Positions 5,200 to 62,357 of a stretch of 64,000 nt of DNA are shown piece by piece; positions within the stretch are counted from its first letter, which is position 1, and the number at the start of each line of letters is the position of its first letter. Position numbers and translations under genes: made by a program. The notes below the pieces were generated by a model. The model saw only the letters and a list, made by a program, of their open reading frames with translations, was not told where the DNA came from and searched no databases. Origin of the DNA: Cheilinus undulatus (taxonomy: Eukaryota > Chordata > Actinopteri > Labriformes > Labridae); the NCBI RefSeq assembly GCF_018320785.1, contig NC_054869.1, positions 32,590,289 through 32,654,288 of the forward strand, given 5' to 3'.

Positions 5200-5560
5200 C
5201 TTTCGTAGCCCCTTTACATTAGCTACCTAGCTATGTTATCTGCGTACCTTACGTAGCCCTGTTACTTACCAGTTAGATTCATGAAACAACCAGTGCTTTA
5301 GAAAACGTAGCTAAAGTTAATATAGTTATGTAGAGAACGCAGCTATGCAGCCCAACTGAGAGCTTTACTTTAGCTTCATAGCTGCATTAGCTATGAAGCT
5401 TATGCAGCCAACGGAGCTAAGTTGCTAATGTAGCTATGTTAGCTAAGTAGTTAAAGAAGCTAGACTATTTACGTAGCTAATGGAGCTACATTAACTATGT
5501 GGCTACGTTAGCTACAGAGCTTAGGCAGCTAACAGAGCTACGTAAGCTACACTTGCTGCG
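5200..5560. repeat. Degenerate TAGCTA/ACGTAGC-rich array
   Basis: About 360 bases are dominated by variants of GCTAnnTAGCTA and TACGTAGC, for example repeated gctatgttagcta and agctacgtta. The words are self-complementary, so the stretch can fold extensively. Spacing is irregular, which suggests an old, decayed tandem repeat inside the surrounding transposon. Confidence 0.6.
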
Positions 5561-5889
5561 TTAAAATATTTTCATGGATGAGGAGGTTTCTCCCTGTAAG
5601 CAGACTATTTACTCAGCTTTATTAAACATTTTGTTATCACGTTTTGCAGGTCAGGTTTTGAATTTTCAACTTTTGGTATTCTTTACTTTAGCCCTTACCC
5701 TAACCCTAACCGGAAGTTTAATCTGATTTCATTTAGAAAGTTTAAGCGTGTATTTCCATTCTGAAATAGATGGCGTCTGAGATGAACAGTCTGTGAGAGT
5801 GGCCATCAGTAATGTACAGTCTGCAATCAGACCCCCTCTCAATGGGATTTGGATTCATGGCTGAAAATGAAACAGATACTTAAGATTTA

Positions 5890-6419
5890 TAACCTTATAA
5901 AGTTTTTTCTCACTGACGAATCCATCTTGCAAAGCTCCCATCTGAACCGTTTGGGCCCAGTTAGAAAGTGACAGGACCAATCAACGACGAGGGGCAGTAC
6001 TTTCAGGCGCAGCAGAGTCATGACGTAAACAAGCAGCAGCAAGAGCTGGTGCAGTGATGGAGGAAGAGATTAGCGTGGATGTTGCCAAAGCGCCAGTTTT
6101 ATCAGAACTTGACAACATTTCTTCATTAAAAGAAGAACAAAGAACAGAAGTGAGTTGTTTTCTTTTCAAAAACGACAAAAGTCGAGTACTTACATGTCTA
6201 TAGTTGTCATGTTTGGCGTTATTCCTCAGTAGCTGACCACGTGCAGCTTGCTAGCAGCTATGTCACATGCTTTCCTGCTCGTGGGCCCGTAAGGATGTGA
6301 CAGAACGTTCACCCAATCATACTCCGAGGATGTTCAAGGCCTCTGCCTTTTCTCAAACGTTTCCTATTTAAGCTTTCCCAGATGGATGTGTGAAACAATC
6401 CATCTGGCGTGTCAGGTTA
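5890..6419 (+). mobile_element. 0.53 kb element with 9-bp target duplication and a helicase-like first exon
   Basis: The element begins TAACCTTATAAAG and ends CAGGTTA. It is flanked on both sides by the 9-base word TAAGATTTA (5881-5889 and 6420-6428). A second copy in the opposite orientation lies at 24987-25507 with a different 9-base duplication, so this is a genuine mobile family. Near the right end an inverted repeat pairs CCAGATGGAT with ATCCATCTGG. On plus, an ATG at 6058 opens MEEEISVDVAKAPVLSELDN and continues to SSLKEEQRTE, followed directly by GTGAGT, a good splice donor. LKEEQRT resembles the Q-motif region just before the P-loop in RecQ-like helicases; that assignment is inference. 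Confidence 0.65.
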
Positions 6420-6809
6420 TAAGATTTAGCCCTTTAAGAGAGCTCGAACTGGCTGATACGAAACAGCTTTGGTTTTTCTAAAATGTCAGGGTGTAAAAAC
6501 AGTTATTTGCGTAGTCTGCATAAAGTTTGCTAACTTTTTTGACAATCTCATGGGACTACATCCTTATAATTTTATCGTGGTGAATGCAGGGAGTCTAAAA
6601 CATTTGGTGCTTAAAGTATTTTGGAGAAGACCACCTACCTGGTGGTGCCATCTATAAAATGGCGAATATTTATCTCCGCCAGGTTATGTGATCGGTAGGG
6701 TTTGTTTGTTAGTTTGTTAGCAACATAACTCAAAAAGTTGATAAAATCCATATCATGATCCCGCCATAAAAAATCATGATAAGATGTTTTTACCATCACG
6801 CCCAACCCT

Positions 6810-11100: not shown

Positions 11101-14100
11101 CCACTGAGATGCAACAGATTACACCGACATGAAAGAGAAGAGTTAAGACTGGAAGGTTTTGTGAAATGGGGTCCCAAAAATGCAACAGAGCCAGACAGAT
11201 TGATAATACCGCTGTCCGCAGGATCATCCACCAGGTCCTCCTTCTCTAAGATCGTCTCCACTCGCTCCCTCCTTAGAGCTTTGATCTGTGGAAGTACATT
11301 CAATGTTTAAGTATGGAATAAAATATGTCTACTACTATTCTACCCTATGCCTCCAACTGGATGTACTCTGACAGTGTATTCATGTCATTCAGGCATGCAA
11401 GAGAGTTGCATGATAATGTGCATGATCCCTTGAGAAAGTTATTGATTTTGATTACAGAAATTAAAGATTAAAGTGTATATTTCATAATAAATAGTATTAT
11501 TCTGTGTAGGTCAGTTGTCTGCAGATCTCAATAAGTCAAACTCACCTCTCTGAGGAAATCCTCATCTCTGAGCCGGTCTCTGAGAAGCAGGATGTCAGCA
11601 TGTCGGCTCTCCTCTGAGCTCCACCTCAGGTTTTGTCGAACAGTCAGAGTTAGGTTCCCTGTATCGTGACAAAACCTCAGCAAGCGGGATCGATCGGCCC
11701 AAACCTGGGACAGATCTGCAGGAGGGGTGGCTAGAGGGTTGGGTGGGCTGCAGGATGACACATCATTTAATTGCAAAGTAAATACATTCAGAATGAATTT
11801 TGCTTAAATAACTACTAAGACAGCTAGTAAGACTTCCCAAACATCAGGGCTCTATAAACCAATCACTATCACTCAGCAGATCAAAGAACAGTCTAGGTTT
11901 TTAGGCCAAGCAGACAGGTTTATAAAGGCTGAGCTTTGAGATTTATGGATCCAGATTGAGCATAACACATTCCTGAGTTTGACAGCTTTTACAAACTGGT
12001 GTTTAGCATTTGACATATTCATAAAAAGTACTTTAACCTGTATGTTTACATTACCTGAAATATCTAAAGAATCCAAGTAATCTTGTGTAATAGCTCGAAG
12101 GCACAGCAATGCAGAGGTTAGTGACAATGTAGTGCTGGGTTTGAACCTGCTGGCCAAATGGAGGATTTCTATGCAGAGTATTTCCTTCTTTAGAGGGGTT
12201 TATGGTTCTTAGCCTCCCCTCAAAGGTCCATTACATGCAGCTTTTGGTTAATTGGCAACTCTTGAGACCTGTAATTGACTAGTGACCTGTCTGGGGTACA
12301 TCACGACTCTCCAGAAAAATAATATATGATGTTTTTCATGACTGAGTGATCTCACAAAACCAAGGAAAAGTTCAAAAAAGGATAAAAGCTGGTATCAAAC
12401 AGTCTTTTCAATAATTTTTGCAGCTTAACAGTGACTCAGTCAATATCTTCCCTGTTAGAGTTGAGATCTTACTGTGTAAGCAGCTCCAGCAGCTCTGTGT
12501 TGCCGGCTGTCCGTGCCAGCTGCAGCGGCGTGACTCCCTCCTCATTTGGCAAATTGATGGCAATCAGCCCCCCTGGCTGACAAAGCAGCAGCTCCGCAAG
12601 GCGATAAAGACCCCACCGCACTGCCAGGTGGAGGGGAGACTCTCTGTGACTGTGCTCTGAGGATAAGGGGAGAAATATGGTACTGTAAAACAAAAAACTA
12701 TAACTCTGTAAAGATAGGAGAAAACAGGCAGAACAAAGGTAGGTAGGTGCAGGAAAAGAGAATCTGTATCCAATGAGACAAGAAAAATAATCCAGTGACT
12801 AAATAAGAGGGAGGGAACTAGGCTACCAAAATCATTTCTTACTAACAGCTACCTTTCCTTGATAATTAACCTAAATGTGAATGATTGATTCCCCCTTCAG
12901 ATCTCTCTGCCCCACTGACCCACTTTGAGGAAATAAAAGCTTTTATTCCCAGCACTTAACAGAGTCTGACCCAGACCTGTATCCAGGTAACTGTGCAGGA
13001 TTAAATCAGCACAGATGCATCCGTTTTAAATTGGAATCAGCCCTTTTTACAAACATCAGACATCCTAAACATAATGTGGCATGAACAGATATCAGTTAGC
13101 AACATTCATCTGTTGTGTTCAAACAATTTTATGCTGGCAACTAGTATATCTAGCTGAAACAAATGAGAGATTTTTTTACGGGGCAGAGAAAGTGACCAGT
13201 TAGACAAACTCTAATCTGTTTTCATGGTCAAACATGAGAGAAAATGTTTGCACAAAAAGAAGCAATGAAGAATTATCTGTATAAGCCTCGAGTTCAGCTA
13301 AATTATTATGTTAAACATCCTGTAGCCCTAATTTTAACACACCTTTACATTTCACAATGCAATACAATGCTAGCTATAACTTCTAGCTCAGCGGTTCTCA
13401 ACTAGTGGGCTGGGACCCAAAAGTGGGTTGTAAAACTGTTTCCAGTGGGTCGTGAATGTCTGCTGGAAAAAATTGTGGAAAAAGTCTATGATGTATGGAA
13501 GTCCTAAGTTGACATACAGTATGTCAATGATCTTTATTAGGTTTTCCTGCAACAGCAGGTACATTTCTGTCTTTTTCCTTAAGATTTCATCTTAGTTATG
13601 TCCTTTCCCCCAGATAACAAAGCTGGTTCGCCCAAGATAATAAGGAGAGTCCTTGAAAAATTACCAAATTTCCATGCTGTCTTCAGAAAATGGGGTAAAA
13701 TGAAATCTTCATGCATGTCCTTCAGTAGTGATGTGCTTTCAAACATGGTTGTTTTATCCTGTCCTTTTGTTAAGTCTGGTTTTGTTTCATTTAGGGTGCA
13801 AACTGCAACATTTTTCATACAATGAATTGAAGTGGTCGAACATTTCTAAATATTTGGGTCGCAATTTCTCATAAGGGGTAGTGGTGGGTCCTGATGCCTG
13901 AGCAGTTGAGAACCACTGGTCTAGCTCAATCAATAGATCATTTTAAGTATAGCACCTCTCATACAATAATAACATAGAACAAAGTGCCTTGAATACTGTG
14001 AAATTAACAAAAACAATATAATTCCTGCCCTCAACCTCACAATCCAGGCTCTAGTTAAAATGAAACATCATACAAAATGGACTTGGAAAAGAAGGACCTA

Positions 14101-17100
14101 AAAACTGAGGAAAGGGAGTTTCAAAGCTTAAAATAGTTATTTTGTTGTTTTAACACTTCATAAATATGTACAAAGGTGTACTTAATGAAATAAAGTTCCC
14201 CTCTACGTATTCTTATGATTGATTGTACTTTATTTATGTGTCATGCACAAAAAGTGCCCAACCATCAAGGGTTGATGTGACACTTGACATATGACTCAAC
14301 GTTGTAACTATTCTTTATCTGACAATACCTTCACAATTTTGGTTTACACCATATTTCAACTGTACTGTATATTTCTGTACATAACAAATATAGCACTCTT
14401 AATGTCCTGAATCTCAAAAAGTAACTCATTTTGAAAAATGAAAGACATATTATTTGCATAAATCACAGATTTCCACTCACTGGCCCAGGGCTCAAAATGA
14501 AGTGTCCCAATTAAAGATCTTTTTTAGTGAGTCTCTGATCAGAAACTTTACAAGCCCATCCCAAAGCCACAGCATTTCATATTTGTGTCTGATGTTTGGT
14601 GGCTCCCATCCCATATCTCTACTCATAGCCAGGACTGATGTGAATTTATGAAGCCCAAGAATGCTCGAATAGCTCTGCGCTCTACAGAATTACAGCTTTG
14701 ATGTGCCTCGAACCCCCATACACCAGAGGTATAGTCATTATCTTGTAGGGTTTTTGGGGTGTGTTTGGGTTAGGTTATCATATTTTTGTAATTCACTTAT
14801 AATTTCACTGCAATTACTACACAGCTGATGTAATTCAGGTTTTGGCAACAATAAATAAGTCAGTGTGTTATACAAGTCCCACTTCTAAATGCAATGGCAG
14901 GAGTCAGGCTTATTAACTAAAATTACAGAAGGGTATGTGATATGTACCAATAATCTGACAGTGACTTCTTGAATAACTGAGGTTTTGAGGCATGATGAAA
15001 AAATTACTGAAAGAGGTAGAAAGAGTTAGACAGTCGCTGTCTGAAGTGATTGTAGATCAGGCATCACAACACTGACAGAGTAAAGAGGGAACGAGTCAAA
15101 ACTCAAGAGTGAATCTGATGAAACATACTCTTGCAAAGAGAAACACTGGGAAGTTTTCTACACCAACACCCCTGTTTGAAGAACTTTTAATCAGATGTTT
15201 CTTTAGCTACAGCACGTTATAATTAGTGGCAAACAAATGTAATCAACACTTCAGTCTCATTTAACACTCTTAATAATTGACATTTTCTGCAAGAGGCGTT
15301 GTGGATTCAAAGTGTTTACCTGTATGTTATACTGTTTATATGTTTGTGGAACGCTAATGTAATGTTTTTGTCTTTCATGAAGGTCTTGCTAAATTACACT
15401 AAAAAAGGAGCTCAGCAAACGTTCAAGCAGAAAGACTGTTTCTTCTCACTCATAAGTCCTCACTTGTACACATCTCTCCCTTTTTCCATTCCTTCTCTCT
15501 TCCCGCTCTGGTGATCAGCTGATACGGGTGTTCACCCTCTTAAGCACCCAGCTAATCAAATTCTGCCACAACCTTTTCTTGACCAATCATCATGCACCTG
15601 TCATATTTTAAATCTGCTATTCTCTCTTCACTGTCAGCATGTCATTTCAGTATGGATGTTGCAACCCTCCTCCACCCCAGCTACCTCCATCAGTATCAAG
15701 TCCAGATCTGACCCTGCATCCCTCATCGACACCACCATCAGTATCTAGACTCCATAGGAGTATCCTCCGGCAATTTCCCTCACTACCCCTTTAAGTACAT
15801 GAAGTCATCACGATGGAGTCTAAACGCCAAAGACATTGCACATTTCTGTTTCATGAAATTTGTAAAATAAATTATTGTTAAACTTGTATAAAGTCTCTCC
15901 TGATTGAATGAAAGTTATCTTGTTACTATAAATCTAACATGTCTTTGAGTTACTTAAGGTAACAAAAGTGTTAAAAACACAAGAGATGAAAGCCTAATTT
16001 CTGAGGTAATAATCCTTAATTCTTCTTAATTGTAGAAGACAAAACTGACAGATTTTTTTTTTTTACAGTTCAATTTTAATTTATTTGATAGCAAACACTG
16101 GGTATTTTCTTTGCAGATCTAAAAGGTTCACTGTTTTGTAGTTGTCCAAGAATATTCTGAATCAAAGTCCTGGCATCAATGTATCAGAATAAGGATTTTT
16201 GTAGTGCCTTTAACAATGCATCCACTATCAACATAAAAACGGACAAAGGAAAGTCCAGGACCTATCATTTCTTTGGATATAGCATCATAAAATGATGTTA
16301 TCAGCACTGTTATCAAATTAACTTCAGACATTCAGAGGGAGACGCTGCAATGAAACAGACTGCCATAACTATATTAACTCTAAATCTAGTTTGTATTTTA
16401 TGTAGGTGGCCCTACACAAACAGATGGTGGCATCTAGCAAACATGGTGCTCAACACACGCATAAGCTTCACACACACAAGCACTCTTGCCCTCAGATTTA
16501 TTAAGCTTTGCCTGAGGCTACTTCCAGATGGAAAGGCTCTATTAACCGCATTACATGCTGCTTAATTGGCTTTGATGAGTTTAACAGAAGCACACATGTG
16601 ACTGTGTTCACTTCCGATTTTCAGCCCAGTGAGCATGGATGGAAAATAGGAATGATGGCAGTGAAGTAGGCGGGTAGAGGCGAGCGGAGTTCAGCAGTTC
16701 ACCTTTCTCGTACAACACCAGCTACAACCTTTCCTAGCCAAAACTGAGTCTGTCTTTAAAGTGATTTCTCTCATTCAAACTACCCTTCAACCATTCTTAT
16801 CTTTCATTTTGTATGCAAAGACATTACTTAATCACAAAAGAACAAACAATGTGCTTTTACTAAACACATTTGAGTAGGAATGCCCATCCAAGATAAGATA
16901 ATCCTGCTCTCACCCTCTCCACTGTGGCTCCCCAGTACATTCCAGTTCTGCGGGATATCCAGGTTGGCCATGGCCAAGGCCACGCGTCGATCCATAGCCC
17001 AGCGAGAGCTCTGCTGGCCAAGGTTAAAAAGGCTGCTCAACTCTTTGTGATCTGTGGAGCTAAGGGAATGTCCGTGGATAACCAGGTGCTCTGCCAGTTC

Positions 17101-30746: not shown

Positions 30747-33700
30747 TCAGGTGGCCTGCAGTTGTGGTTTTGAGGTGGTTGCTTCTCCCTGATTGAGGCC
30801 GTTAGACCTGTTGGCTCCAGAGCAAGTCACCTCCTTCCTGGGGAGGGAGGAGGCGAACATTGTGTCCAACATGCCCAGAACCTCCAGGAGCTCCTGCTGG
30901 TAGTCAATCTCTTTCTCCAGCAGATCCTGAAGACGCAACAGCTGTCGGTCCACAACTGATGACTGTCCGATTATAGACTGGTAGATGTCCAGGATCATCT
31001 CGGCCGCTGTAACAAGGACTGGAGCGAACCTGGGGTCCACCAAGTTCCTGATGAAGAGACAGAAATGGCATACTCCTTCATTAAAATGTTTTAGCATGGA
31101 AAACTGTTGGGAAATGTATTTCTTTCAGCATCTCACCCAATGAGGAAATTGAGCAGCCTAGAGAGTTCCTGTTCATCCCTTCCTGCCAGCGCGTTCTTCA
31201 ATGTTCCTCTTCGATCCAGCTCCTTTATGACGGCTACTGTGATCTCTGGCTTCCTCATTCTTGTCCATGTCTGTGAATAAAATTCTGTTTTATTACCAAT
31301 AGTAAATCATACTGCTGTGTTTTTGAAAGGTCTACTTATGCATGGAGGTTGCAGTTCAGCTTCCGGTTTACAAAACGGCAACCCACACAGCTACAAGAAA
31401 ATAGCATTTCACTGCTTTATTTAGCAAACTACAAAAAGGACACATTAAAAAACAAAAACGGACCTTTTAATGATAACTCATTAAGCATTGTTGCCACAGT
31501 TTAAATAAATAAAAAGCATACCTCCAGAGCTGTATCCAAAGCCTTTGTTACATTAAATTTCTTGAGCTGTTTGTCATATTTGGCCAAATGCTGTTTCACT
31601 GGCTTACTGACAAGATAATCATCCTGAAAAGAGATTAAAAAACAAGCCTTTAACCAACTATGTGAAAGAAACCAGTCTATGTGCCATACTAGCATTACAA
31701 GCATCACTCATAGTATGAGGGGTTTTTAAGAATTTACATCATGCATTTTTAGAGAATAAGAACTTTTCCTGTATCAGACTATCGCAGTTTTTACTGCATA
31801 TTACTTTATGAAAGTTTACCTGTTTAGGGACGTAGTTCTTGCCCTTTACAAAGACACGATATGTTGGTCGTCGCCTCTGCTGGACAAGACTTTCCTTTGA
31901 CTCCTCAGGGCTTTTTCTGTGTTTGATACTCAAAATGCTGTTGGTCATACCCACGACAATGGACTCATCATCCGGCTTAAGGAAAAACAATAGGTGTTAT
32001 TTTCTATAGTTGTTTTAGAGGATTTATGGTATAAAATGTAGCAGTAGGTATCAAAATACGCATCAAGTAAAATTTGTATAGACGTGGTTTTAACCGCAAT
32101 ATGTTTGTGCTAAGTACATGACTGATGGTGATTAAAAGGGAAAATTAGAAAGTAATAAAAGCCAAATGCAACAAAATTGAGGTTTTTGAGTTTGAACCAA
32201 AACCCTACACCCTCTTTTTAATATGGAGAGAATTTATTGTTTTATCTTTTTACAATTTAAATCGAAGGCAGTGCATAAAATTTGCAATCACTGTGGCAAA
32301 ATCACTTTAGATCCTCAGAGCTGGTTTTTCAAAGAAAAGTTGTACATGAAATTTTGTCTTTGAGAGAAAAAAAATTTCTTCTGTATTGGGGTTTTTCTTT
32401 TCATGTTATGGGGAGATAACTAAAGACTTTCCCACCTTGGGTGGCTGTAGTGATACAGGGTATGAGAACGTTAGCTTTTGCCTCCTTTATTTTTTAATTT
32501 ATTTTCTTCAACTCAATATAATTTGAAAAATAACAGCAAACATGATTGAGAGATGAACATAATCTCTTACCCCCAAAGCCAGACTGAGGATGGAGGCAGC
32601 GTAGTCAAAGTTGTGGACCACTTTATAGGTGGTTGTGTTGTACACCTTCACGTGCCTGAGAGAAAAACACAGGCTCTGTATTTGAGTCTTGTAAAAAGCT
32701 CATAACTTTGCATCCATTCAGGACAAACAGATCTTCTCTTGTGATTTACAACATTAAAAATGCTTTGCCTTGTCTGCTGAGTCAGCTCTTCCTATTACAC
32801 AGACACTTATTCTTGTACCTGTCAAGAGAAGCTGACAGAAGCCTCTGACCATTGCTGCTGAGAGATAAGCAGGTAACAGTTTTGTGATGGTTCTTCAGAG
32901 ACACCAGAGGCTGTCCTCCTTTTAGTAGATCCCACACTTTCACAAAGCGGCCACCTAAAGAGAAGGATACAGAAACTTTCAATGTACTTGACACAAAGAA
33001 AACTAAAGAACTACTGTAAAGAAAAGTGTCAGTGCATGACTGCAGGGAGGAAAATCATGTTTGAAAAACTATTTCAGCCTATTTTTGTCCTAACTGAAAA
33101 CACAGCCAAGAATTTAATGACCTTTCATGCTGTTATCCTCCTTTTCGTTCCTTGTATGGCAAAGCCTGTACAACTTTGAACATTTACCCCATGTATGGAG
33201 AACAATCTCCAATGGCTAAGGGACTTTTTATTTTATTTAACTCTACAAAAATGGTGTACAGAATTAGTATGTGGTCTGAAAATAAGATGAAATGTTTAAT
33301 GAGTGCAATGTCCAAATACCTGCAGAGACAAGGAGCCCTTCAGAAGGATAGAGAAGCAGACTCTCTACCGGCTGTCCATGGTCCATCGTCAGGACACTCT
33401 TCTCCGCTCTTGCATCAAACAGTTTCACTGTGTGGTCATACGATCCTAGAGGGAATGAATGATTTTGGTCAGGCAAAAACAGACAAAACTCCATCATTAC
33501 ATCTGCAAAAACACTCTTGCTAAATAATGATTTAATTATGGCAGAAAGTATGGCATCAAAACGTTTAGAAGTACAACAAAAATTCAACAGTCACTCACTA
33601 AACATTGCTGCAAAGGTGAAAACTATTTCAACCTTTCCTTGCAAATAAATAAATAAATAAGACGTCAACAGTAACGTCCATCTCACCAGTGATGAACAGA

Positions 33701-44978: not shown

Positions 44979-45077
44979 ATGATGGTCAGTTGTTAGTTGG
45001 AGCATATGATCATCAAGACGACCACAGCTGAACCTCTGCTCCTTTATTGCATCACTTCAATGTTACTTCATCTAAAA

Positions 45078-48000
45078 ATGGTAAGAAATTATTTCATGGA
45101 GTCAACTTAGATAATTACTTTGAGAGAACATTAAGTAAATTTAAAGCTTTGTAATCCCATTATGATAACATATTAGCTCTATACTTACGGCATTTTCCCA
45201 AAAGTTAAACAACATGACATTTAACAGTGCATTTAAACCTAACTTTTAGGTTTAAATGCAAGAAAATTGATGTCTGAATCCTTTTTTCTTGTTGTCTCTC
45301 AATCTTTCAGAAGGCCATGTCAATGTGGATATTTGGGCTCCTGTGCCTCAGCCTCTCAGGAGCACATGGACTGCACGAGTTTCCAGGAAACTGTATGTTT
45401 AACTTGTTTTCCTCATATTTGCCTCATATCATTTGATTCCTTGAATTATCCTCATTTTGATCTTTTGTGAATAGCATTATTTTGTGCATTTATGTGGACT
45501 TGACTCCTTGATTGTGTTTGTGTAGTTGTTGTCGCCAAAAGAAACAGTGAAGATCCAGTCGTTCTGACCTGCAGTACAAATACTGAAGGAAATGTCACAT
45601 GGAATTTTAATGGGGAAGAGATAGATGTGGATTTGGAGGACCATCTCCAGCAGGACGGGCTACATTTGACAGTGTCAGAGGTAGGCACTCCCACGCTGGG
45701 AGAATACAGCTGCTGGAGAGGAGGGAGCAGGTTATCATCAACCTATCTGCTGTTGGAGGCAGAGGAGGGTAAGAGGATCTTGTTGTGTTTTTAAGTCATC
45801 ATTCTTTAATAGAGGAACTTATGGCACTCATGCTAATATTAACCAGAGGTGTGTATTTCTCAAGGATGAGAGTAAAAATTAAGACATAGTGAAATGTTTG
45901 ATAAAGCAACACTGATGCTAAGACAGTTGCTCAATATTCAGTGATATTTCTGATTTTGGTTTCCTCAAACTTTCCAACATATTGCCTTTTTCCAGATTCT
46001 CCTCTCAGTTGTCAGGCAAAGTCTTATGACTGCTTCTTCAGCTGTTCCTGGACCAACACTGAATATGAAGTAGTGCGCCTTGGACTTGGCCCAGAGTGGT
46101 AAAAACAAGACAAAAAACACAATCTAGTAAAAACAACGAAGTGGAAAGAATTGCACCTTTCCTGGTTTTAAATCTTCCTCTGCCCCTGTTTTATTTCTTT
46201 CTCTGTAGCACTGAAGGTGAGCAGTCCTGTCAATGGGTCAGCAGTAGAGATCTGCACTCAGACGGGACATTCCAGTTTGAGGTGCCACATGCCATCTCAC
46301 CCTACACCGAAGAAAGCACCGTGCTTGAAGTCACAGCTGAGGCCATCGCTGACCTCTCCATCCTCAGGAAAACCATTAGGTTTTATCTCAGAGAAATCGG
46401 TAAGCTGAGGGAAACTGAATGACATTTAAGGCATTCAGCAGAAAATTATCTAGATTAAATAGTCAACTGCAGTAAAATTCAGACACAGCTATCCACAAAG
46501 TATGGAAAAATTAGTTATCAGGAAATTTTGGTGGATGCAATCAGTTTATGTTGTGTTTAAGAAATGTTACTTAAATGACTTTCTAAAGTATAAGGACATA
46601 CACTGGAGATATTTAAACAAATATTCTATAAACTATTGGCTCTCACACATTCATTACAAAACATGCATAATCAGCGGTGACTGGGTGGCTTAGAAACATT
46701 TACATTTGATTAAAAAAGAAAGAAGTGCCCTTTCTCACTTTTCTGCCATTTCTATCATCATTTGTGTTCTTTCCAGTTAAACCCGACAGCCCCCAGATTG
46801 TCCGGTGTCAGGAGATGGAGCAGGACTTGAACGTGACCATTGATCCTCCATCCAGCTGGTCCACTCCTCACAGCTTCTTCAGTCTGGAGCACGAGATCGA
46901 ATATGTGCTCAAAGATAACGGCAAGGTACACACAAACTCGCTCTAAAACGAAGCCAGCTGATATCTCCTCTTGTACATTTTGTTTTCTAATCGTGTGACT
47001 CCATCTTTGTTTCAGACTGGACGTTCTTTGTCAACTCTGATACCGAAGACGATCAGCAAGCTGAGGGTTCGCTCCAGAGACTCGCTGGTGCTCTCGGACT
47101 GGAGCCAGTGGACTCCCTGGAAAAATGTAACCTACTGATTCTATAAGAACACAAACCTATCTGCACCTGCTCTTTCTATGTTCTTACTTGGCCGTAGTAT
47201 GATGTCTCGTCATGTCCTGTCACCTACTGTTTGTCACTGTGGTGTCTGACTGTCTCTTTTTGGTGCAATCGCTCACTGATGAGCAAGAGTTAACACAACA
47301 CCCACCCAAAGCTCAGTGACGTCACAAGTTCTGTTTAGTTCTAAGGAACTATGCAGCCACTATTTATTCTTTTTATTTACGAATTAATTCAAGCTATTTA
47401 TTTTATTTCTGAATTTAATCAAACTATTTGTTTTAATTATGAATTTAATCAAACTATTTATTTTGATTCTGAATGAACTCAAACTATTTATTTATGTATT
47501 TATTATTTAATTATTATTTTAGAGCTCATGTTAAATGAGGTAAACAATCATCTATGATAGGCTACGAACATTTCTTCCCAGAGTTGTCAGATGTGCTTTC
47601 GTGAGACCAAATCTTTTAAAGCATGTATTTCTCTCTATGATGCCTTTCACACAAAAATCAAATTAAATCAACATAATTGAAAATTTAACATGAATCACAA
47701 CATATACTAACAAAGGAGTCTGGCTCAGTCTCCACTTTATACATAATTTCACACATTATGTTCCTTGTTTGTGTTATTTATATTTGTGTGTTGGTCTTTC
47801 TGTGAACAGTGATGGTTTGACTGTGCAAAAAAGCTATTAAAATGCTTGTGCTTCCTTCCTTATACATGTTACTTCTTTATTTCTGTGTTGCTCATGTCAT
47901 GTACTAGACTAAAAAGAAAATCCCCATTTACCTGAAAACACTTTCGACCAATAATTCCCACACGGCAGCAGACAAAAAATCAGAAACATTTGAAAAACAA

Positions 48001-50073
48001 AGCAGCAAATACAATTTCTGGGATGATAAGTTTAATAAAAAGGATGAAGCTTATTAAAAGAAGTCATTTTCTGAATGAAAGCCACCAACAAAAAAATGAA
48101 TGTAAACCAGAATATAGATGTTTGTACAATAAAGGACTTGTCAGTAGCACATGATGTAAAACACGGGTGTTTATTTTATTACAATAAGCAGTTGTTTTAG
48201 TTTACACCAGTGGTTCTCAACTTGTCTGGCTTTAGGAACCACTACCAGAGGTGGAAAGTAACTAATTACATTGGCTCATATTACTGTAATTGAGTAGTAT
48301 TTTGGGGTATTTGTAATTTTTTGAGTACATTTTAAAATCAGTACTTTTCCTTCCACGTGAGTAAGTTTTAACCAGAGTAACTATACTTTTATTTTACAAT
48401 ACTCTTGTATTTATTCCACCTCCATTGACTACACAGTAGCACACAGTGAGAGAATGATTCCACATCAGATCCATAAATAACTGTTGCTTTTCACTTTATT
48501 TAGTTGAACAACTTGGCTGGAGATGGTTATTTTCACGGTGTTATTATCAAGAAGGAGATATCGTATTTCACCATACAACTCCTAAAATGTTACTAGTACT
48601 ACTAGCAATACTGCTAATATTGCAATTTAACATGAGATTATTTTTGAAGTTCATACTCTTATGTACTTTTCAACAAACAAAGCAATAAATCATCCTATCT
48701 TATAATCAACACAATATTAGACATATTACATGTAAACTGTTCATAGGTCAGTTCCAATATGTTAGGATGGTGTAAACATGGTGCATATATCGATAAAAAT
48801 TACATATTTTATTTATCCATTTAATCACAGTAGTAAACTGACTGATTAGTTTTACTTACAGCCTTTTAAGCAATCATCATGACAACATAAAAAAGCTCTG
48901 ACAATAAGTGTGGTGTAAACATCAATATGAAAGTCAACGGATTAGGGCTGATTGAATTTAAAAAATGATCTGTTTGTGATTATCTTACCCATTTAATAGA
49001 AAACCAGCTCTGTTATCACAAGACAGCAGGATAGCTATGTCAACAGTTTGAGGAATCAACCAAAACCTACTCATTATCATGGAAAAAGTCAAAGGAAATA
49101 TATGTGTACAAATCTGCTTAGAGATTCCAAAGCTTATAGACTCTTTGCCACATTTTTCTCAGAACATACAAAAGGGCTCAGTGACCTATTTTAGATCCTG
49201 ACCCACCAGTTGAGAACCCCTGGCTTACAACAAGTCATTTAGACTATGAAACAGGTGGACTTAATCAACAGTCAGCTGGTTTATTTATTTATTTGTATCA
49301 GTTCCTCAAATTGCATTCATTCGTCTACAAGCCTACTACTATGTCCACAGCAGTCTTTCTTGGTACTTTGTTTATTATGGAAAGGTTGTCAAATTTTAAT
49401 TATGGACAAGATCATGAATTAGTGATAAACTTTTCTGAACTACAATGGCCCTCTGAACAAACTGAAGCATATTAAATCTGGATTTTATAGCTCCATCTAC
49501 CTTTACAGCCTTTTTTAACCCATAAATGTATTTACATCTGGATATGATTTAAGTGACTGTCAGTGGATTTACTGTACTGGATAATCTTAGCAACTTGTTC
49601 ACTAACCTGGTAGAGGCTGTGACAACCAAAACAACAACAACAAAAAAAGCTTACCTATAGTTGCTTACAGTTCATTAACATAAAAAGGGAAGATGGGGAC
49701 ATGGACACATATACAGCAGGTTAACTGCAACAATATTTAAGAGCCTCTTGTCTGGTCCCTTCAACAGCCATGTTACAATTATATCTGAGCTTGCTGCCTT
49801 CCTGCAATACAGTATTCACATCTCATGCAACAAGATTAGAAACATCACTGCCAGAACTTTCTAATATGACTTTAATACCGACGCTTAGCAACATTTCCTG
49901 TCATTTCTGACCCTAATCTATCTATGAACTCATTGCAGGTAATTACAAGTAAAAAGAAGCTGTGCAAATGCAAAAACACAGCTAAATTTTGCTGTCCAGA
50001 ATTGCCTGATGGGTTGGACCGCTGCAAGAAAAGAAATAAGAAGAAGAGAAAGGGAAAAAAGGATGTTCAATAG
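45078..50073 (+). CDS. il12b: Interleukin-12 subunit beta (p40)
   Basis: Coding exons: 45078-45080 (ATG at the end of exon 1), 45311-45392, 45526-45768, 45996-46098, 46209-46399, 46777-46925, 47016-47126, and a proposed last exon 49939-50073. All join in phase. If the donor at 47127 is not used, translation stops at 47138. Order of parts: signal peptide (MKAMSMWIFGLLCLSLSGAHG), Ig-like domain (VVLTCSTNT, then GEYSCWRGG), first fibronectin-type domain (DCFFSCSW), and a second domain beginning VKPDSPQIVRC with SSWSTPHSFFSL, closely like mammalian p40. It ends in the WSxWS-like WSQWTPW. p40 is secreted and pairs with p35 (IL-12) or p19 (IL-23) to drive cellular immunity. Fish have several p40 paralogues; which one this is cannot be settled here. 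The extra exon adds a basic tail. Confidence 0.9.
47016..47138 (+). CDS. il12b: il12b short-form last exon (read-through of the weak donor)
   Basis: If exon 7 is not spliced at AAAAAT|GTAACC, it reads on for four codons (VTY, stop at 47136-47138), giving a p40 that ends soon after WSQWTPW like the mammalian protein. The donor is weak (T before the junction, GTAACC after it), so both outcomes are plausible. The following 3'UTR is AU-rich and has ATTAAA near 47835. Confidence 0.55.
   Translation, partial: TGRSLSTLIPKTISKLRVRSRDSLVLSDWSQWTPWKNVTY
47340..47520 (+). promoter_or_regulatory. il12b: AU-rich element block with 30-bp tandem repeat
   Basis: About ten ATTTA pentamers, several overlapping as ATTTATTTA, lie in 180 bases after the short-form stop. 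From 47390 a 30-bp unit (about caaactatttattttgattc) repeats four times, each copy bringing new pentamers. In cytokine mRNAs such blocks recruit decay factors such as tristetraprolin (known); the role here is inferred. Confidence 0.6.
48208..49222. mobile_element. hAT-like element with nested repeat, in il12b last intron
   Basis: The ends are CAGTGGTTCTCAACTTG and, reverse-complemented on the right, CAGGGGTTCTCAACTGG. The flanks GTTTACAC and GCTTACAA agree at 6 of 8 bases. From about 48249 a second dispersed repeat (AGAGGTGGAAAGTAACTAAT) is nested inside. Confidence 0.6.
49939..50073 (+). CDS. il12b: il12b alternative terminal exon: basic, cysteine-bearing tail
   Basis: A clean acceptor (ACTCATTGCAG) precedes 45 in-phase codons: VITSKKKLCKCKNTAKFCC, then a PELPDGLDRCKK stretch and a lysine/arginine run RNKKKRKGKK, ending DVQ and TAG at 50071-50073. 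AATAAA follows 23 bases later. The frame matches the output phase of exon 7 if the donor after AAAAAT (47126) is used. Mammalian p40 has no such tail. The composition suggests a glycosaminoglycan-binding or matrix-retaining extension; CKCKNT also recalls the heparin-binding part of VEGF-A, which is only an analogy. Confidence 0.6.
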   Translation, partial: VITSKKKLCKCKNTAKFCCPELPDGLDRCKKRNKKKRKGKKDVQ

Positions 50074-50095
50074 AATCAAACACCTGAGGTTTTTC

Positions 50096-50101
50096 AATAA
50101 A
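50096..50101 (+). terminator. il12b: Poly(A) signal after the il12b tail exon
   Basis: AATAAA sits 23 bases past the stop of the 49939-50073 exon. This very short 3'UTR lacks the ATTTA block of the short form. Confidence 0.55.
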
Positions 50102-50109
50102 ATTTTGTG

Positions 50110-51200
50110 TGCAAAAGCCCTGTGTTTTATTTATTTGAAAACAATCTGATAAAAGTAGTATGGGATATCGAACTAAATATCTTAAACTGTGAATTGTATA
50201 AGGAAATGCTTGTTTATGTGTGCTTATTTATGAATCTTTATTTAATTGTTTCAGTCTTGCCAAAAACATTTCCGACTGTAAATTTTCTAGTGTCTATTTT
50301 TTTAAGATTCTAACTTTTCTTTAAACATTCCCCTTCAATAAGGATGTTTTTCTTGGTACCGTGAAACACACTTAGGTCTATTTAATAAGGGTGTCCCTTG
50401 GAGCACACACCATCAGATTTAGTGACAGCTTTTTCCACCAGGCTTAAAAGTTGTAATCAATAAAACTGCATAATAACAGAAGTGCAATAAAACTTCTTGT
50501 TCAATACTCACTGATCCTTAAATGTATATTTATGCTCTGAATGTTAAGTTCTGCCTACATTCTCTGTACACATTCAGCGTATGCTCTGCCAAACAGGCTT
50601 CACATTTTTGATAACTCGTCTTACATTTTCTTATTTATTTTTTACACTTTCTAAATGGAGACTTATGGCATAAGAATTTCACATTGTACTAACCAGAAGG
50701 CCTTAAACATCTTGGATGTTGAGTCCAAGCTTATTGTTTGTGAGTCAGATGTGGATTTTGTAGGAAACACTGACACATGCTACACATCATCACAAGTTTC
50801 ATGATGACTATTAGATACTGAGCATGGGCAATACTGGGAAGAGAAACCTCAAAAACACATTTCATAAATAGACCCAAACACTTACTTTAAAAAAATCTAT
50901 GTTGACCCCCCCAAATGCTAAGCTTTAAAGCTATTTAGCTTAATCAAGCCCTGCACAAAGACCGGCATTTGAGTTTAGGTGAGAAAACTGCAAATTTCCA
51001 GTGTCTTCTGGTTCACCGCATTTTTAATATTATAGCACTGGTAACTATAAGCACGGGTGTAGAGACTAGAAACATAAAAAGAATAGACTGGTTGATACAA
51101 TTGTAATAACTATGACTTAAAAAAAAAAATTAACGTTCAATGCATGCTAATGGGGGTCCCAGTTTTCCCGTGGCCACCTAGCAGGTTAATCCGGCTCTGT
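50110..51200. other. Intergenic region between il12b and pradc1
   Basis: This is AT-rich sequence without a recognised gene or transposon. It becomes GC- and CpG-richer from about 51160 towards the pradc1 start (TACGCATGCGCATTAAGCGG), consistent with a promoter. Confidence 0.5.
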
Positions 51201-51370
51201 AAATATACGCATGCGCATTAAGCGGAGCGCGGAAGTGCTTGCCAACCTGCTCCTCTGTTGTGTCCAAACCGAGGGAATACAGCTACTGATGGACAAAGAC
51301 CGCTCTTAAATACGAACCACATTGAAGTATAGTCTGTCCAAAGTTGTGGAGCTCTGCAAATGCCTTAAAA

Positions 51371-57949
<6,579 letters not shown>

Positions 57950-61261: not shown

Positions 61262-62149
61262 TTACCTCCTCTTACACCGTGGACACACTCTACCCCACAC
61301 TGTCCTCACCGTGGCGTCCCTCAGAGCAGGACTCCCCCAGATGTACACAGACGGGGTGCAAACCGCGTTCAGACGGGCCATGATGGCGAACAGGTTAGTG
61401 GCTTCGTTTCTGAACGTTAGCCCTCTCCCTCCCACGAACCTGAAGATGATATTCACAAAAGAGGGACACCACAACACCAAGAAGCTTACGACAACAAAGA
61501 TGATGATTCTCAGGGATTCCTTCTTGCTGTCTTTGTCAGCGCTCGGAGGGTCTCTCGCAAGCTGGAACCTGGCAACGACATACAGTTTGATAGTCATGAC
61601 CACTTTAGTGAAAATGATGAGCTGAAAGAAGACGATGCTGAACACGTAAAGCTGAATCGCTTTGGAAACTGGCAACAAGTTCCTTGCGAGCAGGTGGGCG
61701 AAGTTATAAACCCAGCAGTAGATATTAATGCCGATCACAAAGTGTCTGGTTATGAAGCGGCTGTAGATGAAGGGATGGCACACTGCAAAGTACCGATCGA
61801 ACTGTGCGAACAAAAACGTCAAAATATTCACCCCAAGAAGAGACGGTAACACATTATAAGTACCGTTTCTAGAGGGATAGCCCTCCTGAACATCAAACAG
61901 ACCCAGATAAAACACTGAAAAGCCCACTAAAGTGTCACAAATACTCGTATTCAGCATGAAAATGAATCTGTTCTGAAGGCGCAGAGCTTTAGTGGCTGAG
62001 ATGCTGATGACTACTGTTCCTGCCACCAGGACAGTGGTGGTGGCGAATAAGATCTGGAAAATAAAGATGAAATAATCCTCAGGATTGTCGAAGTCCACCG
62101 AGAGAGGCACTCCTCCTGTCAGAGAGTCTGTTGTGTTGGAGAGGTGCAT
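61262..62149 (-). CDS. Rhodopsin-like (class A) G protein-coupled receptor, orphan
   Basis: This is an uninterrupted 295-residue frame with seven hydrophobic segments. The N-terminus has an NTT glycosylation site. TM2 carries the conserved aspartate (NTSICDTLVGF). TM3 ends in DRYFAVCHPF, a clear DRY motif. TM6 has LWCPSF in place of CWxP, and TM7 has TPSVY in place of NPxxY. The cysteine usually found at the top of TM3 is missing and the second extracellular loop has none, so the standard disulfide is absent. That is a feature of the melanocortin/cannabinoid/lysophospholipid group, and GPR119 shows similar DTLIG and FDRYLAI..PF motifs. I cannot name the orthologue. The short basic tail contains cysteines (CPRCKRR). 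Intronless structure is common for the class. Confidence 0.85.
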   Translation of the reverse strand: MHLSNTTDSLTGGVPLSVDFDNPEDYFIFIFQILFATTTVLVAGTVVISISATKALRLQNRFIFMLNTSICDTLVGFSVFYLGLFDVQEGYPSRNGTYNVLPSLLGVNILTFLFAQFDRYFAVCHPFIYSRFITRHFVIGINIYCWVYNFAHLLARNLLPVSKAIQLYVFSIVFFQLIIFTKVVMTIKLYVVARFQLARDPPSADKDSKKESLRIIIFVVVSFLVLWCPSFVNIIFRFVGGRGLTFRNEATNLFAIMARLNAVCTPSVYIWGSPALRDATVRTVWGRVCPRCKRR

Positions 62150-62357
62150 TGTTCATGCAAATGTGACTCTTAAGTACAACCATTCTTTTATAGCTAAGAC
62201 TTGATGTCATAAACCTCTGTCTCTTGAGATCGTGTTAACTAATGCACTTTTTAACCGTAAACAACAGCAGCATGCAGAAGTCCTGCACAGCGTGCAGTTT
62301 CAACTTTAAAGACGAATCCATGAGCCCAACTTTCCTGCATTTTATACATAACAGCAC

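Follow-up and report, generated by a model that had tools for sequence, protein, structure and literature searches.

Exon 7 of VEGF-A is known to encode a heparin-binding domain, a basic and cysteine-rich C-terminal module that is added by splicing. In PDGF-A, exon 6 of the long form, PDGF-A(L), is an alternative Lys/Arg-rich C-terminal exon that confers association with heparan sulfate proteoglycans, while the other form diffuses (PMC3072383). In CXCL12gamma, a tail of 30 residues, unstructured and 60% Lys/Arg, is added by alternative splicing and results in tight heparin binding and retention at the surface (PMC2040504). Thus, as far as the accessible parts of these two reports go, a cationic terminal exon can serve retention. 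The p40 chain of interleukin-12 has a heparin site of another kind. According to the accessible part of one report, heparin binding of human and mouse p40 needs domain D3, the basic C'D' loop is predicted as its core, and the human cluster consists of 6 basic residues in 9 (PMC6109204). The activity of human IL-12 is reported to increase more than 6-fold with heparin in vitro (PMC5509706).

I analysed a stretch of 64,000 nucleotides of Cheilinus undulatus DNA (the window). A gene on its + strand is a teleost il12b, which encodes the p40 chain common to IL-12 and IL-23. Its site would differ from that of mammalian p40, a member of the same protein family, in lying in a C-terminal tail and not in a D3 loop. 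The features discussed below are as follows; splice scores here and throughout come from a splice-site matrix and are to be read as approximate.

45060-45080, 45311-45392, 45526-45768, 45996-46098, 46209-46399, 46777-46925 and 47016-47126, + strand: coding exons 1-7 of il12b (p40c-type), hand-built model
47127..47138, + strand: read-through end of exon 7, Val-Thr-Tyr-stop (short form ...TPWKNVTY)
47127..49938, + strand: predicted intron 7, donor GTAACC (score 2.9), acceptor TTGCAG (score 6.3)
47139..47860, + strand: putative AU-rich 3'UTR of the short form, 722 bases, with ATTAAA at 47836
49939..50073, + strand: candidate exon 8, a basic C-terminal tail of 44 codons with five cysteines, and TAG (from frame, acceptor, composition and control scans)
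50096..50101, + strand: AATAAA of the predicted long form, with a T/G-rich stretch behind it; 22 bases between stop and signal

The p40 membership of the gene follows from its domain matches. The predicted protein scores 52.6 bits against Pfam IL12p40_C (cut-off 25) and matches solved p40 structures in the PDB (best E 4.8e-23) in an alignment that spans residues 14-296. By this alignment, the protein has the layout of an Ig-like D1 and fibronectin D2/D3 with a WSxW motif, here WSQW, the Ig profiles themselves remaining below the Pfam cut-off (25.5 against 27.3 bits for Ig_5 and 22.2 against 30 for Ig_3). The interchain cysteine to p35 is absent; ISPYTEES lies opposite ACPAAEES of the PDB chain. 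Carp p40c is likewise reported to be without the p35-bonding cysteine, so this residue, to judge from the accessible part of that report, is not family-defining (PMC2946394). The primer and probe sequences for Seriola p40a, p40b and p40c found in the accessible part of PMC10165394 were compared with the il12b copies of the window and of C10 and C12. The p40c probe agrees at 20 of 25 bases in the window, against 15/25 in C10 and 14/25 in C12, and the three p40c primer and probe sites are collinear in the window only. However, the p40c forward primer fits C10 better (17/20, versus 15/20 in the window), and with the reverse primer the window and C10 tie at 15/23. The missing cysteine and the probe fit, taken together, are why the gene is called p40c-type here; in sequence it appears to be most like p40c.

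Exon 7 ends at 47126 (AAAAAT/GTAACC). A join from there to 49939, behind the acceptor AG at 49937-49938, is in phase 0, and the coding frame runs over 49939-50070 to the TAG at 50071-50073. The predicted tail is VITSKKKLCKCKNTAKFCCPELPDGLDRCKKRNKKKRKGKKDVQ, with 5 Cys, 14 Lys and 3 Arg. The phase, the 44 open codons, the AATAAA closely past the stop and the Lys/Arg-rich composition with four or five cysteines all stand as first proposed. The frame is open upstream back to 49876, and a branch-point-like CTGAC was seen by eye at 49907-49911, with no AG from there to the acceptor. More AATAAA signals lie downstream at 50459 and 50486. The donor of exon 7 is the lowest of the gene's seven (the others score 3.2-8.8) and is indeed weak, as had been said. 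The acceptor of exon 8 compares with 4.0-11.1 for the six other acceptors of the gene. To call it clean was generous: the AG is in place with its score of 6.3, but 47127-51300 holds 10 other acceptors of at least 6, and 8 of these 10 outscore it, which counts against the explanation preferred below. I consider it likely from the sequence that 49939-50073 is a genuine exon, spliced at least sometimes.

PDGF-A is like p40c in having an alternative basic C-terminal exon, which in p40c is a predicted one; it is unlike p40c in that it is a growth factor with an 18-residue motif and established splice forms. CXCL12gamma is a chemokine, whereas the predicted tail of p40c is 39% Lys/Arg with five cysteines. 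VEGF-A exon 7 resembles this tail in kind, being basic, cysteine-rich and C-terminal. Homology of the tail to the VEGF-A heparin-binding domain was rejected, since its score is reached by 300 of 5000 shuffles. A metallothionein identity was also rejected; it is the sole Pfam family match, with an E value of 0.11, below the cut-off. The tail has no match among PDB sequences up to E 10. In the open-access literature, among the titles and abstract starts of the matches listed, no basic tail on a fish p40 was found; the papers on the original cloning of p40 in carp, trout, rock bream, grouper and amberjack lie outside this scope, so I do not claim that such a tail is unpublished.

How often would such an exon arise by chance? 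A strict test asked for three things together: an acceptor scoring no less than 6.2, a phase-0 frame open for 44 codons or more, and AATAAA within 30 bases. When the 4.17-kb interval was simulated 2000 times with a first-order model, 26 of the simulations passed this test. On both strands of the real window and of the loci of two paralogues described below (L005 and L006), three other places pass it: the p40b acceptor of L006 and, in the window, positions 14688 and 43705. The real chance rate is therefore above the simulated one. The frame at window 43705 was dropped as a candidate exon, its translation by eye being unlike a known protein. A frame was counted as dense basic if it followed an acceptor scoring 6.2 or more, had a K+R content of at least 38% and carried a net charge of +8 or higher. 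The scan for such frames covered the window and both paralogue loci, where 10,632 AGs in three phases gave 18,464 frames that stay open over 10 residues or more. Dense basic frames occur at five places, and the exons of p40c and p40a, each in its correct phase, account for two of them; a further hit at 50000 lies inside the p40c exon and was counted with that exon. The remaining three places correspond, by my own arithmetic, to an expectation of about 0.02 per 4 kb for a single given phase. A looser test of net charge alone was passed by 32 of 120 real 4-kb segment and phase combinations, both tails included, and was dropped as too permissive. In second-order simulations, a net charge of +8 is reached in 68/1000 (p40c) and 66/1000 (p40a), and +13, the charge of the p40c tail, in 2/1000. 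Queries with 193 bp of the exon DNA and with the tail peptide each gave one match in the 1.17-Gb genome, in a search that scores the best candidates only and skips simple repeats. There is thus no sign of a repeat origin among the candidates scored, and this origin was rejected.

The D3 end of p40 faces away from the p35/p19 interface. Two PDB p40 chains, presumably human, stop five residues past the aligned WSEW region and are tail-less, in agreement with the claim that mammalian p40 has no such tail. The p40c core has a net charge of -21 and no BBXB motif; the predicted tail has a net charge of +13 and four BBXB motifs, so that the predicted exon is a cationic C-terminal exon with motifs of the heparin-binding type. 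In the p40 alignment, p40c has a gap opposite the qgkskr part of the D3 basic loop and VLKDNGKTGRS, with a net charge of +2, opposite the remainder; the human cluster of 6 basic residues in 9 falls in part on the gap and in part on VLKDN. The mammalian-type basic loop is mostly missing in p40c, and the tail may therefore take over the heparin role. Read most simply, the tail would be the place where p40c holds heparan sulfate. If the exon is real, retention on heparan sulfate through the tail seems fairly probable. The original prediction set p40c apart from mammalian p40 by the tail, but heparin binding itself is reported for human and mouse p40, through D3 (PMC6109204).

When exon 7 is read through, the short form gains an N-V-T sequon, which splicing to exon 8 would remove. 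The stretch 47139-47860 holds 12 ATTTA and 7 TATTTAT motifs, where simulated means are 2.24 and 0.21 and none of 1000 simulations reaches either count. A 30-bp tandem repeat (47371-47493, 4.1 copies) builds part of this AU-rich block; the element was apparently expanded there by tandem duplication, which multiplied the ATTTA-type motifs. Farther down the intron, ATTTA again exceeds expectation, with 15 in 2078 bases against a simulated mean of 7.28 (7/1000 reach the count), so that the AU-rich block, though enriched, is not unique. A stretch of 1010 bases upstream has 2 ATTTA, with a mean of 3.31. A long form cut after 50096 would have a short UTR without AU-rich motifs, but five ATTTA occur in the stretch as far as 50500. 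The weak donor of exon 7 and the AU-rich stretch past the read-through stop thus suggest two forms. That a real exon gives p40c two ends and two forms is, on this sequence evidence, an evenly balanced proposition.

Is a terminal exon present in other il12b genes of the same fish? A search of its own genome with the IL12p40_C profile found at least four exon matches in at least three genes: the window gene, on C5, and one gene each on C10 and C12. The genome holds at least two further il12b genes beside the window copy. The C10 gene is p40a-like (Seriola p40a probe, 24/26) and the C12 gene is p40b-like (Seriola p40b probe, 25/30). In each of the two, a strong donor follows closely on the WSxW-type motif, which is WSEW in p40a and FSHW in p40b, and a possible short terminal coding exon, matched in phase 2, lies downstream of that donor. 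In p40a (L005, predicted join of 5329 to 6683), the donor scores 8.3 and the acceptor 7.5, and the candidate exon, 1.35 kb on, would encode the basic tail RLKKSKRNKKNKH before a stop. This exon is only predicted, because its acceptor was hand-picked for the basic frame from 12 that score 6.2 or more, three of them outscoring it, and because five AATAAA precede it. In p40b (L006, modelled from D2 on), the donor scores 8.4 and the acceptor 12.2, which is the highest value among the four listed, and the predicted tail is MVNRNDVKC followed by a stop. This end is not basic, which counts against the preferred explanation. The p40b acceptor exon (reverse complement of L006, 4136-4320) has, in addition, 61 open codons in a different phase (GESKRCEMLDPV...), while the phase-2 donor yields the nine-residue end. 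At L005 5330-5421, inside intron 7, the read-through stop of p40a is soon followed by AATAAA (5416), which may allow an early end in this gene too.

Since both paralogues offer a splice at the corresponding point, the exon of p40c may be an ordinary terminal exon and not an add-on. The original prediction had placed the expected il12b end in exon 7; this is a mammal-based end, and in both other il12b genes of this genome a splice to a terminal coding exon is on offer there. The candidate exons of the paralogues raise the probability of the exon at 49939-50073, which probably descends from a terminal exon common to the il12b paralogues of this genome. The splice sites must then have moved, because the p40c join is in phase 0 and those of both paralogues are in phase 2. 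The tails of p40c and p40a align no better than shuffled ones (587 of 5000 shuffles as high). Both the difference in phase and this alignment result count against the preferred explanation. A comparison of C-termini across paralogues, proposed earlier as a check, gave candidate terminal exons in both genes of the same genome, that of p40a being basic, but no alignment of the p40c and p40a tails better than shuffles. The real-sequence control and the choice of the p40a acceptor lower the probability of the exon and of the two forms. In genome_contigs (6 pattern stretches) and viral_contigs (1 stretch), no il12b relative was confirmed, as expected for a fish gene.

The preferred explanation is that 49939-50073 is a true terminal coding exon of a p40c-type il12b gene with two ends. 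Splicing of exon 7 to exon 8 would put a 44-residue, probably unstructured, cationic C-terminus off the end of D3. The tail would most likely act as an electrostatic anchor to heparan sulfate on cell surfaces and in the matrix, the role proposed for the basic D3 loop of mammalian p40. Without use of the weak donor, the transcript would end in the AU-rich stretch, giving a tail-less, more diffusible chain and probably a less stable mRNA. The sequence with its frame and charge, the candidate exons of the paralogues and the AU-rich block are what the analysis shows; I infer the splicing, the use of both ends, the binding to heparan sulfate and the retention, the last of these, in the matrix, by likeness to PDGF-A(L) and CXCL12gamma.

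It is possible, if less probable, that the exon is real but constitutive, so that p40c is always tailed and the read-through end is an unspliced by-product with no isoform switch. The exon 7 donors of p40a and p40b are strong and could splice by default, and the p40c donor is barely below those of exons 2 and 4 (3.2 and 3.3), but the AU-rich block and the ATTAAA past the read-through stop resemble a used cytokine 3'UTR. The same AU-rich UTR behind exon 7 would fit a p40c that simply ends at NVTY, with 49939-50073 an unspliced relic or chance frame. The weak donor, the higher-scoring acceptors nearby and the phase unlike that of the paralogues agree with this, as do the simulations and the three other real places that show a similar arrangement. 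I nevertheless regard it as doubtful, since a dense basic tail, an intact 44-codon frame, an acceptor and a poly(A) signal occur all together and p40a has a basic candidate exon at the corresponding place. A separate small gene, starting at an in-frame ATG (49924-49926) in the frame that is open upstream and encoding a 49-residue Lys/Cys peptide unrelated to il12b, is highly improbable: no signal peptide is evident by eye, the tail has no family match apart from the rejected metallothionein, and the acceptor sits in the il12b phase.

The two-ended terminal exon may be extended to a wider scheme, which I offer as an unlikely speculation. The retention element of fish p40 would be a dedicated terminal exon at the stalk position of p40's receptor ancestor, where mammals use the D3 loop. 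In p40c it would be switchable through the weak donor and the AU-rich early end, with a short-lived mRNA and a diffusible chain on one side and a longer-lived mRNA and a tethered chain on the other. The five tail cysteines could replace the lost interchain cysteine, cross-linking p40c dimers or partners.

IL-12 and IL-23 steer immune programmes, so the distance over which they spread matters. Keeping IL-12 local is something that is being engineered towards for cancer therapy, according to the accessible part of one report (PMC7593768); a natural tethered p40, if true, would be a test case for it. A tethered p40 could also help explain why fish have several p40 genes with differing reported activities (PMC4929537 and PMC10165394, in their accessible parts). 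If the preferred explanation is true, a heparin site would have relocated within one protein family.

Other genes were noticed in the window. On the - strand, the two stretches 30747-31124 and 33264-33590 hold a match to the UTP15 C-terminal domain (69.1 bits, cut-off 33.1) and a weak WD40 match below the cut-off, and an ankyrin-repeat match lies at 12469-12798. A gene start on the + strand at 51372-52000, 1.3 kb downstream of exon 8, by eye resembles what I take to be PRADC1. At 61262-62152 on the - strand, a single open frame of 296 residues matches 7tm_1, the rhodopsin-family receptors (49.4 bits, cut-off 30.5), and is possibly a chemosensory receptor.
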